Positions 42,040 to 51,028 of a DNA stretch of 51,028 bases are shown piece by piece. Made by a program: the position numbers and the translations under genes. Each line of letters opens with the position of its first letter. Position 1 is the first letter of the stretch. The DNA comes from an uncultured Faecalibacterium sp. (GTDB taxonomy: Bacteria; Bacillota; Clostridia; Oscillospirales; Ruminococcaceae): NCBI GenBank assembly GCA_934533135.1, contig CAKTBG010000018.1, positions 1 to 51,028 on the forward strand, written 5' to 3'. Under the pieces are notes generated by a model. That model saw nothing but the letters and a program-made list of their open reading frames with translations, had not been told where the DNA came from and ran no database searches.

Positions 42040-42140
42040 GAGCAACTTAGGATTTTAGGCTCCCCGGTGCATCTCGAGCTGCGCCGGGCCAAACCCACAG
42101 GGGCTGGCGGCCCTGCGCGGTCAAAATCATCCCGCTGGAG
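42040..42140 (+). promoter_or_regulatory. preQ1-III riboswitch
   Basis: The segment matches the class III preQ1 aptamer as I know it from F. prausnitzii: GAGCAACTTAGGATTTTAGG, CTCCCCGG, a variable stem, GCCGGGCCAAACCCACAGGGG, CTGGCGG and GCGGTCAAAATCATCC. The last part precedes the ribosome site GGAG (42137-42140). In the known example the ligand-bound fold ties up the ribosome site, so preQ1 would reduce QueT synthesis. Confidence 0.9.
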
Positions 42141-47426: not shown

Positions 47427-49088
47427 TTAGAACAGCCCCGTGATCTTACCCTCCGCGTCCACGTCGATGTTGACGGCGGCGGGCTTCTTGGGCAGGCCGG
47501 GCATGGTCATGATGTTGCCGCAGATGACCACCACGAACCCGGCACCGGCGGCAAGGCGGACCTCCCGGACTTCCATGGTGAAGCCGGTGGGGGCGGCCAG
47601 CAGCTTTGCGTTGTCACTGAAGCTGTACTGGGTCTTGGCGATGCAGACGGGCAGATCGCCGTAGCCCATCTCGGTCAATTCGGCAAGGGTCTTGCTGGCG
47701 GCGGCACTGAAGTTCACGCCGTCGGCGCGGTAGATCTTGGTAGCGATGGCCTTTACCTTGTCCTTGAGGGGCATTTCCAGCGGATAGGTGTACTGGATGG
47801 GGCGATCCTCCATGACCTTGAGGACTTCTTCGGCCAGAGCTTTGCCGCCCTCGCCGCCCTTGGCAAAGACCTCGCTCAGGACGCAGGGCACGCCCTGCTC
47901 AGCGCAGACCTGCTCGACGTAAGCCTGCTCTTCGGGGGTGTCGGTGGGGAAGGCATTGATGGCGACCACCACAGGCAGGCCGAAGCCGTTTTTCAGGTTG
48001 TCGATGTGGCGGACAAGGTTGGCGGAACCGGCTTTGACGGCCTCGAGGTTGGGCTGGTTCAGGTCGGCTTTGGCGACCCCGCCGTGGCTCTTGAGGGCGC
48101 GGACGGTGGCCACCAGCACGCAGGCACTGGGTGCGATGCCGGCATAGCGGCACTTGATGTCGAGGAACTTCTCAGCCCCCAGATCGGCACCGAAGCCCGC
48201 CTCGGTGATGACGTAATCGGCCAGCGAGAGGCTCAGCTTGGTGGCCATGACGCTGTTGCAGCCGTGGGCAATGTTGGCAAAGGGGCCGCCGTGGATGATG
48301 GCCGGGTTGTTCTCGAGGGTCTGGACGAGGTTCGGGTCAAGGGCGTCCTTCAGCAGGGCGGTCATGGCACCGGCGGCACCGATCTCGCCCGCCGTCACCG
48401 GCTTGCCGTCATAGGTATAGGCGCAGACGATCTTGCTCAGCCGCTCCTTCAGGTCGGAGATGCTGGTGGCGAGGCAGAAGATCGCCATGACCTCGCTGGC
48501 CACGGTGATGTCAAAGCCGTCCTCGCGGGGCGTGCCGTTGACCTTGCCGCCCAAGCCGTCCACGATGAAGCGGAGCTGGCGGTCGTTCATGTCCATGCAG
48601 CGTTTCCATGTGATCCGGCGGGGGTCGATGTTCAGCGGGTTGCCCTGCTGGATGCTGTTGTCGATCATGGCCGCCAGCAGGTTGTTGGCCGCGCCGATGG
48701 CGTGCAGGTCGCCGGTGAAGTGGAGGTTGATGTCCTCCATCGGCACCACCTGCGCATAGCCGCCGCCGGCGGCACCGCCCTTGACGCCGAACACCGGGCC
48801 GAGGGAGGGCTCCCGCAGGCAGAGCATGGTCTTTTTGCCGAGGGCGTTCATGGCGTCGGCCAGACCCACGCTGGTGGTGGTCTTGCCCTCGCCCGCGGGC
48901 GTCGGGCTGATGGCCGTGACAAGGATCATCTTGCCCTGCTTGCCCGCCTTGTGGATGAGGCGGTGGTTGATCTTGGCCTTGTAGCGGCCATAGGGGATCA
49001 CGTCCTCGTCGGCAAGGCCGAGGGATGCGGCGATCTCCGCGATCGGCTTCATCTTGGCTTCCTGTGCGATCTCGATATCAGACTTCAT
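47427..49088 (-). CDS. fhs: Formate-tetrahydrofolate ligase
   Basis: 553 residues; joins formate to THF using ATP, feeding one-carbon units to purine synthesis. P-loop [29 protein letters not shown], the FTGDLHAI loop and the closing [11 protein letters not shown] are all present. AAGGAGG precedes the ATG. Controlled by a ZTP riboswitch with its own terminator in the leader. Confidence 0.97.
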
Positions 49089-49111: not shown

Positions 49112-49152
49112 AAAAAAGGGCAGCTTCGCGCAGCGATTGCGCAAAGCTGCCC
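49112..49152 (-). terminator. Attenuator terminator of the fhs riboswitch
   Basis: Minus-strand stem GGGCAGCTT/AAGCTGCCC with inner GCGCA/TGCGC, followed by six T. Its 5' arm overlaps the conserved CTGGGCAG of the aptamer, the classical switch layout. Confidence 0.93.
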
Positions 49153-49214
49153 AGACGGTCGGCATTGACATCCCGGCTCTCCCCGCACTGTGGTGCTCCA
49201 CAACGTTCCGTCAG
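49147..49214 (-). promoter_or_regulatory. ZTP (pfl) riboswitch aptamer upstream of fhs
   Basis: Minus strand reads CTGACGGAAC, a GTGG/CCAC hairpin, GGGGAGAGCCGGGATG and TGCCGACCGTCTGGGCAG. The usual CTGGCG...CCGCCTGGGCA pairing is replaced by CTGACG...CGTCTGGGCA, a compensatory change. ZTP binding should break the downstream terminator and allow fhs expression when folate-dependent purine synthesis stalls. Confidence 0.85.
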
Positions 49215-49241
49215 CAGAAAGAGCCGTTCTCGATGGTTTTA

Positions 49242-49331: not shown

Positions 49332-50507
49332 TCATTTATTTCCTTTTGCCCTATTATGCGTTTTGCATAGCATCTGACAATTTTTAATGTCCGTCATTCC
49401 GCCTTTGCTCCATGCTGTAACATGGTCTGCATCCATTTCCGTGAACTTCCAGATACGTTTTGCATTGCTATCTGTGCCTATTGCACATAATGGACAGTTT
49501 GATTTTCCGTTTATTTTTGCATCAGCTGTCTGTTGTTCATAAACCGCCTTTTTTGTGCTTTCTTCAAAAATGCGAATTTCGAGTAGCCGAAAATCCTGAC
49601 ATCCTCCTAAAATATATTCAAAAATACCAGCTTTCTTTTTCACGGCATTATCTGCATATAGTTCATGCACCTTTGCAGATACCGTAGCAGGGTCATACGG
49701 ATTATTGTGATATGTCTCAAAGAGTCTTCCCCATTCTAACCCACGCATTTCACTTTTCACATCGCTGAAAACACCTGAAACCCAGTCAATAACACTTAAA
49801 AAATATGCTTCAAGCTCATTTATATTATCATCATAGCGATGTTCGCTCATATATGTATCTATCACATCATTGTCAGTGCTTCTGGTCACCCATCCTAAAG
49901 CAATATGCAAAAAATCCTGCCTCAAGACGTCACCCTTTATGTACGCACTCCATTTTTGTATATTGGCATTTTGACTGTTGCTAAATTTTTCCTTTGCTTT
50001 TGTGACAAAAGTTCCTGAATATACCGCATTTGAAATTTCTTGATGCTTCAATGGTATTCCCGCAATATTGATTGTCTTGAACCACTCTTTTATTTCACTT
50101 TCTGTGCCTTCGCAAATATAAATTGTCAATGGTGTTTCATTGATTTTTTGTCTTAAATCTTCTGCCATCGCCGAATAATAATGCGGCATTCCATTTTCAT
50201 CTATCAACGGGAATTTTCCCGTCAAAAAACGACCCAAGCTCGTAATGCGCTGTTGTCCATCTAAAACCTCATACTTATCTGTTCCAACTTTATTAAAATA
50301 AATCAATCCTAATGGATATCCATTCAGCACAGAGCGAATAACCGCTTCTTCCATTTTCTGCTTCGCATAAAGATAGTTGCGCTGATATTCCGGCTGAATT
50401 ACAAGTTTACCAGATAAACCAAAGAGCCCTTTTCCTTCCAATTCATTGTACACAAAGCCTTTGCATATTTGCGCAATGGTAATATCTGTTACAAGCGTTG
50501 TCTTCAT
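49332..50507 (-). CDS. DUF262-HNH protein, putative modification-linked nuclease
   Basis: 391 residues. The N-terminal DUF262 (ParB-like NTPase/DNase) domain has IQPEYQRNYLY and EVLDGQQRITSL; the C-terminus is an HNH nuclease domain with CPLC, DADHVTAWSKGGMTD and NCQMLCKTHN. This pairing occurs in GmrSD-like and other anti-phage nucleases. The gene is visibly AT-rich with A/T-ending codons, unlike its neighbours, which suggests transfer. The ATG overlaps the stop of the distal methyltransferase frame (ATGA) and lacks a strong ribosome site (AGGGAGCG lies close), so it may depend on translational coupling. Confidence 0.85.
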   Translation of the reverse strand: MKTTLVTDITIAQICKGFVYNELEGKGLFGLSGKLVIQPEYQRNYLYAKQKMEEAVIRSVLNGYPLGLIYFNKVGTDKYEVLDGQQRITSLGRFLTGKFPLIDENGMPHYYSAMAEDLRQKINETPLTIYICEGTESEIKEWFKTINIAGIPLKHQEISNAVYSGTFVTKAKEKFSNSQNANIQKWSAYIKGDVLRQDFLHIALGWVTRSTDNDVIDTYMSEHRYDDNINELEAYFLSVIDWVSGVFSDVKSEMRGLEWGRLFETYHNNPYDPATVSAKVHELYADNAVKKKAGIFEYILGGCQDFRLLEIRIFEESTKKAVYEQQTADAKINGKSNCPLCAIGTDSNAKRIWKFTEMDADHVTAWSKGGMTDIKNCQMLCKTHNRAKGNK

Positions 50508-51028
50508 AACTTTCGCTCCCTACTTATTCGACGAATAAGTAACCGTTGGTATACCTTTACTCCATTTACTACACCGGCTGCATTTAAGTCGTAGGTTCCT
50601 TTTTTTCCAAATAATTCAAAATACCGTTTCTGGCACTCTTCCGATGTATACACTTTAGTTTTTAATCCATACAAGTCCATATTTTCACACATACCCACAA
50701 TTTCAAATTGTTCCGGGCAGTGCTTAAACAAGTATGTAATAGGAACCCCCATAATTCCGCTACATCTTCCGTTTAATAAATATTCGTCCGTAGCGGAGTT
50801 TTCCTTCAATATACGGTCCGTCTTTTCCTGTTCTTGACTCGATTCCGGCGAGACCTCTAATATTTCCAGCTGCAAGGCCGACAATTTCAAATTGCTCTGG
50901 GCTATGCCTGAACAAGAAGGTGATTGGCACTCCCATAACTCCATTACATTCCGGTCGGTCGGTCGGTCGGTCGGTCGGTCGGTCGGTCGGTCGGTCGGTC
51001 GGTCGGTCGGTCGGTCGGTCGGTCGGTC
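50504..51028 (-). CDS. EcoRI-family adenine methyltransferase, C-terminal part, distal frame (partial)
   Basis: Only the 3' end is in the window; the catalytic part lies beyond the right edge. This frame reads through the GGTC repeat (as repeated Asp-Arg-Pro-Thr), then 60 codons of unrelated sequence, then the module CSGIMGVPITYLFKHCPEQF EIVG... ending YQRLLIRRISRERKL. The module matches the C-terminus of EcoRI-type m6A methyltransferases. The stop TGA overlaps the nuclease ATG. Which frame joins the unseen N-terminus depends on repeat number. The ATG at 50944 is internal, not a real start. Confidence 0.7.
   Translation of the reverse strand, partial: DRPTDRPTDRPTDRPTDRPTDRPTDRNVMELWECQSPSCSGIAQSNLKLSALQLEILEVSPESSQEQEKTDRILKENSATDEYLLNGRCSGIMGVPITYLFKHCPEQFEIVGMCENMDLYGLKTKVYTSEECQKRYFELFGKKGTYDLNAAGVVNGVKVYQRLLIRRISRERKL
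50760..51028 (-). CDS. EcoRI-family adenine methyltransferase, C-terminal part, proximal frame (partial)
   Basis: Alternative frame of the same gene. After the repeat it reads PECNGVMGVPITFLFRHSPE and QFEIVGLAAGNIRGLAGIES, ending YGRIFIKRKM and TAG at 50762-50760. This is a complete, shorter version of the same C-terminal module, homologous to the distal one. Translation stopping here leaves about 250 nt before the nuclease start, so coupling would be lost. Confidence 0.7.
   Translation of the reverse strand, partial: PTDRPTDRPTDRPTDRPTDRPTDRPECNGVMGVPITFLFRHSPEQFEIVGLAAGNIRGLAGIESRTGKDGPYIEGKLRYGRIFIKRKM
50953..51028. repeat. (GGTC)19 tandem repeat, runs off the window edge
   Basis: Nineteen perfect tetranucleotide units lie inside the methyltransferase reading frame. 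Because 4 is not a multiple of 3, each unit gained or lost changes the downstream frame, while every frame through the repeat itself stays open. This is the classical structure of slipped-strand phase variation. Perfect identity of all units implies active length change or recent expansion. Confidence 0.95.

Follow-up and report, generated by a model that had tools for sequence, protein, structure and literature searches.

The DNA considered here, hereafter the window, comprises positions 1 to 51,028 (51,028 nucleotides) of contig CAKTBG010000018.1 from an uncultured Faecalibacterium sp. (assembly GCA_934533135.1). At its far edge, and read on the minus strand, it holds a tetranucleotide repeat, two C-terminal modules (A and B) lying in different reading frames downstream of this repeat, and a gene for a nuclease that starts where the second module stops (Table 1). 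The modules belong to what is likely the 3' end of an EcoRI-type adenine methyltransferase gene, and the repeat appears to choose between them by slippage.

Table 1. Features at the edge of the window (asterisk, stop codon; Ka and Ks, rates of nonsynonymous and synonymous change; L022, a related locus)
Feature	Position	Strand	Evidence
GACC tetranucleotide repeat, cut by the window edge, likely slippage site	50952..51028	-	19 full units (50953..51028); period-4 run of 77 bp
Module A and stop, frame a; full alternative C-terminus of the LAAGNIRGLAG type and likely a target-recognition domain	50760..50951	-	PF13651 positions 277-345; Ka/Ks 0.067 against L022
Bridge of 61 codons: module A DNA in frame b, stop-free	50768..50950	-	Ka/Ks 1.76 in frame b against L022
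TAA of frame c, right after the repeat (..DRPTGM*), likely truncated state here	50944..50946	-	Reading-frame inspection
Module B and stop, frame b; second full C-terminus, of the MCENMDLYGLKT type	50504..50767	-	PF13651 positions 277-344; Ka 0.063, Ks saturated against L022
ATGA, stop of frame b overlapping the start codon of the nuclease gene	50504..50507	-	Sequence reading
Nuclease, GmrSD_N (DUF262) + HNH, 391 aa, likely partner of the methyltransferase	49332..50507	-	PADLOC REase_II; PF03235, PF01844

The repeat and the alternative C-termini

Since the window edge falls within the GACC repeat, the 19 units are a minimum and the N-terminus of the gene lies beyond the window. An earlier note, made from the letters of this DNA, had counted the same 19 units as GGTC, a figure that holds as a lower bound. 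The true number is probably larger, because the run lengths in the three contigs that start inside the repeat (77 bp in the window, 21 bp in locus L018 and 59 bp in locus L020) match sizes that common assemblers use as k. The three frames described in the note were also recovered by direct reading: frame a leads directly into the 63 residues of module A, with its stop at 50760, frame b passes over the DNA of module A without a stop (about 60 codons in the note, 61 by our count) and then enters module B to stop at 50504, and frame c meets TAA immediately after the repeat.

The assignment of both endings to the EcoRI methylase type was borne out by the profile of this family, PF13651. The sequences scanned (64 aa for module A and 87 aa for module B) scored 40.8 and 42.6 bits, respectively, against a curated cut-off of 26.4, and each covers the last 68-69 positions of the profile. 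The catalytic part of PF13651 and its NPPF motif are present in the relatives L019 and L022, and the predicted protein P0132 also matches the profile there. A sequence search of the PDB (E up to 1) returned chance-level rows alone, the best having E values of 0.4 for the methyltransferase and 0.77 for the nuclease, and Foldseek gave no match at E <= 0.001. In a VIA second look the class obtained was that of adenine methyltransferases, with rRNA enzymes ranked first.

Modules A and B are each under purifying selection in their own frame. When the window is compared with L022, module A exhibits a Ka of 0.064 and a Ks of 0.96 (Table 1 gives the values for module B). Among L018, L019, L020 and L194, Ka/Ks of module A is 0.06-0.18, and among L018, L019 and L020 that of module B is 0.05 in one pair, Ks being saturated in the other two. 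An unused ending would decay. The bridge, when read in frame b, shows Ka/Ks values of 1.1-2.8 over five pairs, indicating that it is simply kept open. The earlier note regarded this open bridge as unlikely to arise by chance. In 20,000 draws of synonymous recoding of module A, with its protein kept, the window bridge was open by chance with P = 0.036, which is mildly improbable and makes the claim weak for the window by itself. The claim gains from the relatives, as the bridge is open in all six loci, window included (P 0.019-0.086 each, with 3-6 stops in the other offset), although the six values cannot be multiplied because the loci share ancestry.

Recurrence of the array among relatives

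A nuclease scan of 84,980 species genomes found 419 relatives, the best 80 of which were kept and, together with 17 from viral contigs, gave a total of 97 loci. In four of them (L018, L019, L020 and L022) the repeat, the modules and the nuclease follow in the order of the window. The same four were returned by a motif scan of the 97 loci for closely spaced modules, a scan that misses designs such as L016. Other close loci, namely L001 and L002 (each with a nuclease 87% identical), L021 and L023, hold a single module. The whole genes of L019 and L022 encode the catalytic part with NPPF, a further module (module 0), a GACA repeat located within the loop that precedes the last strand of module 0, then module A and finally module B. 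On the DNA, L022 is in frame A (426 aa) and L019 in frame B (535 aa). The third frame of all four relatives ends in ..(R/V)TPYFRIIIRRKM or ..ITPYFRIIIRRKM, which is the last strand that module 0 otherwise lacks, and their three frames would thus yield module 0, A or B.

These modules are also found singly, as interchangeable C-termini, in other methyltransferases, for which reason they are probably target-recognition domains (TRDs). Similar module types also occupy different sites, the ATESEG type standing at A in L019 and the CTESEG type at B in P0134. A different arrangement was observed in L048, L075 and L110, where two modules lie about 1.1-1.2 kb apart and each ends a long open frame; these are apparently two tandem methyltransferase genes of the PF13651 kind with different modules, another way of holding two likely specificities.

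The search for C-termini duplicated in different frames that the earlier note had proposed was carried out on 231 distinct methyltransferase C-terminal regions (218 at first and the rest later, from genomes of the family or order of those of L019, L020, L022 and L233, in 1,596 genome searches with overlaps counted), and the array recurs. A repeat occupies the site in 16 of the 231 regions, and the loci amount to 19 when the window, L018 and L020, which start inside the repeat, are included. Sixteen of the 19 include DNA 3' of the repeat; in 14 of them the conserved last strand is present in all three frames, and in L112 and the window it is present in two. Expressed by frame, 46 of 48 end in this strand, against a background of 506 of 39,276 ends of open reading frames (1.3%) in the loci gathered up to that stage. 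The truncation that had been suggested as the third state fits the window, whose third state looks truncated, but not those 14 loci, in which the third frame is a complete ending and a true three-way choice, via the ending of module 0, is predicted.

The repeat units read at the DNA level are GACA, GACC, GA/AG, CA, AGCAG and AACGG. In L233, L246, L261 and L262 the repeat lies within a different type of first module (YDR(I/V)VI end). A second design was seen in L195, L197, L247 and L263, which have a shared front half-module, an (AG)n repeat and then, one per frame, three short back halves that are alternatives to each other. Two other repeats were discarded: the one in L172 (ATC) is distant from the site (374 nt, compared with 167-248), and the one in L144 (AATAGA) is located past the stop codon.

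States of the switch were also counted in predicted proteins, taken from searches with the L022 methyltransferase (8000 scored, best 120 listed) and with the module-0 part of P0132 (937 matches, best 120 listed). Among the matches listed there are 221 distinct proteins, 123 of which hold module 0 by motif. A repeat was seen in 51 of these 123, and 48 were kept once P0255, P0305 and P0134 had been dropped as chance matches; 14 of the 48 are in state 0, 19 in state A and 9 in state B, and six are cut. Another 60 of the 123 carry an ordinary single module 0 with no repeat. The repeat periods, in residues, are 2 (n=5), 4 (n=33, counting P0283, with a period of 8, as 4), 5 (n=8) and 7 (n=2), corresponding to units of 2, 4, 5 and 7 nt, even though the five protein-only ER rows of period 2 could formally derive from 6-nt units (AG loci at the DNA level have 2 nt). 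The share of GACA is biased, as the query of the second search itself had a GACA-coded repeat. Twelve distinct units were deduced from the proteins and 14 when GACC and CA are added from DNA, and none of the 14 has a length divisible by three, which would be expected if frame shifting is what counts. So far, with 14 units of 2-7 nt, the design has turned up in genomes taken from several groups of bacteria.

Proteins with near-identical cores are found in different states, as in the pairs P0121/P0122, P0124/P0129 and P0269/P0273 (99.1-99.3%), and the cores of P0262 (state A) and P0275 (state 0) are 94.3% identical. In P0123, P0131 and P0286 the core gives way to unrelated sequence at the repeat or close to it, which may reflect joins made during assembly or insertions there.

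No close DNA copy of the window locus was matched in phage and plasmid records, nor the GACC-plus-module pattern in viral contigs. Relatives number 13 in phage records (all listed) and 98 in plasmid records (best 30 listed). The sole relative from these records inspected for repeats, L269 (Helicobacter phage Pt11509_1, PQ159904.1 18534-19949), has genes for an EcoRI-type nuclease and a methyltransferase, the latter annotated as two coding sequences, and no repeat at the corresponding site.

Readings of the array and of its nuclease

As the earlier note had proposed, slippage in the repeat probably selects which C-terminal module joins the catalytic core, in what would be a C-terminal phase-variation switch; the recurrence of the array, the purifying selection on A and B and the near-identical cores with either module all support this. 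A change of specificity, beyond on/off switching alone, is the best reading because arrays recur, both modules are under selection, near-identical cores are joined to A or B, and the modules are exchangeable. The GACC repeat would slip during replication, and the unit number modulo 3 would then determine whether the product is the core with A, the core with B or, in the window gene, a protein ending after the repeat. The chosen module would set the methylation target and, less certainly, modification and restriction would both move to a new target in a single slippage event, with no cutting of the cell's own DNA.

Among the other explanations, all of them improbable, the least so is ordinary on/off phase variation, in which just one C-terminus is functional, the other module being a duplication relic. 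The truncated frame c of the window would suit it, and the best-known phase-variable methyltransferases do switch on and off. However, selection on A and B in their own frames is unlike the behaviour of a relic, and the conserved strand lies in three frames at 14 of 16 loci, every state being found among the predicted proteins. Slightly less probable is a silent store of cassettes used in recombination, with the repeat as a site of recombination or breakage and the frames irrelevant. Similar module types at A (L019) or B (P0134) do suggest that modules move, but cassettes need neither differing frames behind an open bridge nor units that are never multiples of three, and there are already predicted proteins that run across the repeat into the downstream modules. 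Programmed ribosomal frameshifting or transcriptional slippage, which would produce several forms per cell at once and would likewise keep every frame open and selected, is very unlikely, given that units of 2, 4, 5 and 7 nt, with their varied compositions, represent neither slippery heptamers nor runs of one base, and that near-identical genes encode different states at the DNA level. Hardly credible, finally, is an assembly artefact fusing unrelated gene ends at a low-complexity repeat: the window contig ends in the repeat, as do those of L018, L020, L109, L221 and L267, but L019 and L022 show the repeat, A, B and the nuclease in this order with no break, and related arrays carry other repeat units.

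The nuclease (PF03235, 72 bits; PF01844, 31 bits; PADLOC REase_II, 294.6 bits) most likely depends on the methyltransferase for its target, a conclusion less certain than that of the module switch. A fixed target of its own would lead it to cut the host after each module swap. Similarity between nucleases was compared with that between methyltransferases in 95 methyltransferase-nuclease pairs, which came from 139 methyltransferase references including duplicate loci, and which were kept when both genes were present, no stop occurred, the motif was recognisable and the methyltransferases were distinct. Nuclease similarity follows that of the core (rho 0.75) and not that of the TRD, for which rho is 0.10 and the partial correlation 0.06, a value equalled or exceeded in 32 of 500 permutations. 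Nucleases may be almost identical beside very different TRDs, as in L047/L045 (TRD 27.5%, nuclease 99.7% identical), L045/L046 (28.8% and 98.4%) and L003/L037 (28.8% and 98.2%), and 15-residue stretches of the nuclease range from 0.56 to 0.90, none being as variable as the module. Alternatively, the nuclease, a relative of GmrSD, might cut DNA bearing another modification, although the reading with a shared target is favoured. In the window, L022, L018 and L112 the end of the last module coincides with the start of the nuclease gene, so translation of the nuclease may depend on the state of the repeat too.

Several observations weigh against the switch of module and target. The catalytic part of the window gene lies outside the window, and its frame c has no last strand, which gives two endings here rather than three. 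The state-A model is of low confidence in the C-terminus, so the docking half-module and the two-module fold cannot be read from it. The methyltransferase core also has a variable patch (0.39-0.45 in a conservation profile computed on single-module references), and variation by itself does not therefore single out the module. The GACA run of L022 is just 13 bp, and eight of the 123 module-0 proteins hold an A or B array in which no repeat was detected; some copies may thus be nearly locked. The counts of states refer to predicted proteins clustered at 90%, mostly from metagenomic contigs, which are related by ancestry and are not independent events. As for the nuclease, its partial correlation with the TRD is weak yet positive, and in L046/L052 and L045/L052 the cores are similar (0.86-0.88) with nucleases 75% identical.

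A stronger form of the proposal, to which we give about an even chance, is that of a three-position selector, with nested TRDs in all frames after a hypermutable repeat, a nuclease that reads the target of the methyltransferase, methylation and restriction changing jointly with every slippage, several barriers per population and no off state. If the switch of specificity holds, a clone would have two or three methylation and restriction specificities at its disposal and could move from one to another at slippage rates with protection kept, the methylated motif would be predicted by the rule of unit number modulo 3, and the DUF262-HNH nuclease would rely on the methyltransferase for target choice. 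Bacteria that are mostly uncultured would thereby have a simple means of varying their anti-phage barriers and methylomes. Since assembled contigs frequently end within the repeat (6 of the 19 loci: window, L018, L020, L109, L221 and L267), switches of this sort can easily escape notice or be recorded as gene fragments.

The methyltransferase-nuclease pair was probably acquired by horizontal transfer, as its G+C content is 40% (49332-51028), compared with 59.5% for positions 1-49000. Its ordinary chromosomal neighbour is a gene for formate--tetrahydrofolate ligase (47430-49088, minus strand) with a ZMP/ZTP riboswitch directly upstream (49142-49228, minus strand). Elsewhere in the window, a strong PreQ1-III riboswitch (111.7 bits) was found at 42040-42140 on the plus strand.

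Comparison with known systems

The methyltransferase genes mod of Type III systems (ModS in Streptococcus suis) likewise encode adenine methyltransferases that repeats make phase-variable. In the accounts drawn on here, one specificity is switched on and off and the alleles differ between strains, whereas here one gene would hold the alternatives; the two complete endings of the window and the three in 14 of 16 loci speak against on/off switching of that kind.

C-terminal phase variation is a named class, described in Helicobacter canadensis (PMC2823697) and Neisseria gonorrhoeae (PMC5320596), in which a repeat late in the gene shifts the frame and alters the C-terminal residues among three frames. 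The window resembles it in having a unit that is not a multiple of three near the 3' end and C-termini that differ by frame. The portions of those reports used here describe homopolymer tracts that mostly change a few residues in H. canadensis, and in the gonococcus give tails of 2-91 residues and one fusion of 186, and they do not mention duplicated homologous modules. The arrays described here differ in that their units measure 2-7 nt, homologous domains follow one another in separate frames, and purifying selection acts on both of the endings tested. In the Type I system NgoAV, according to the parts of PMC9577141 considered, slippage of a repeat (poly-G in hsdS1) also changes the specificity of restriction-modification, and two specificities of HsdS result from truncation or fusion of hsdS1 and hsdS2. 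The repeat-bearing gene here is not HsdS, since PF13651 matches the modules in the window and the core in relatives, and, as judged on two genes, the module is part of the methyltransferase itself, two or three versions of it being encoded in separate frames. Nested TRDs selected by frame were not found in the portion of the open-licence PMC literature covered, from which both C-terminal phase variation and NgoAV were retrieved.

Among pairs of PF13651 methyltransferases with DUF262-HNH nucleases, a single module is usual in the 97 loci, in contrast to the tandem modules that the repeat would choose here. The nuclease matches GmrSD_N and HNH, and not the fold of EcoRI. It shares with the Type IV enzyme GmrSD, as presented in the sections of PMC4619093 drawn upon, a nuclease with GmrSD_N (DUF262), a DGQQR motif and an HNH domain, a likeness known from the domains, and it differs in that its gene adjoins that of a methyltransferase, with an overlapping start.
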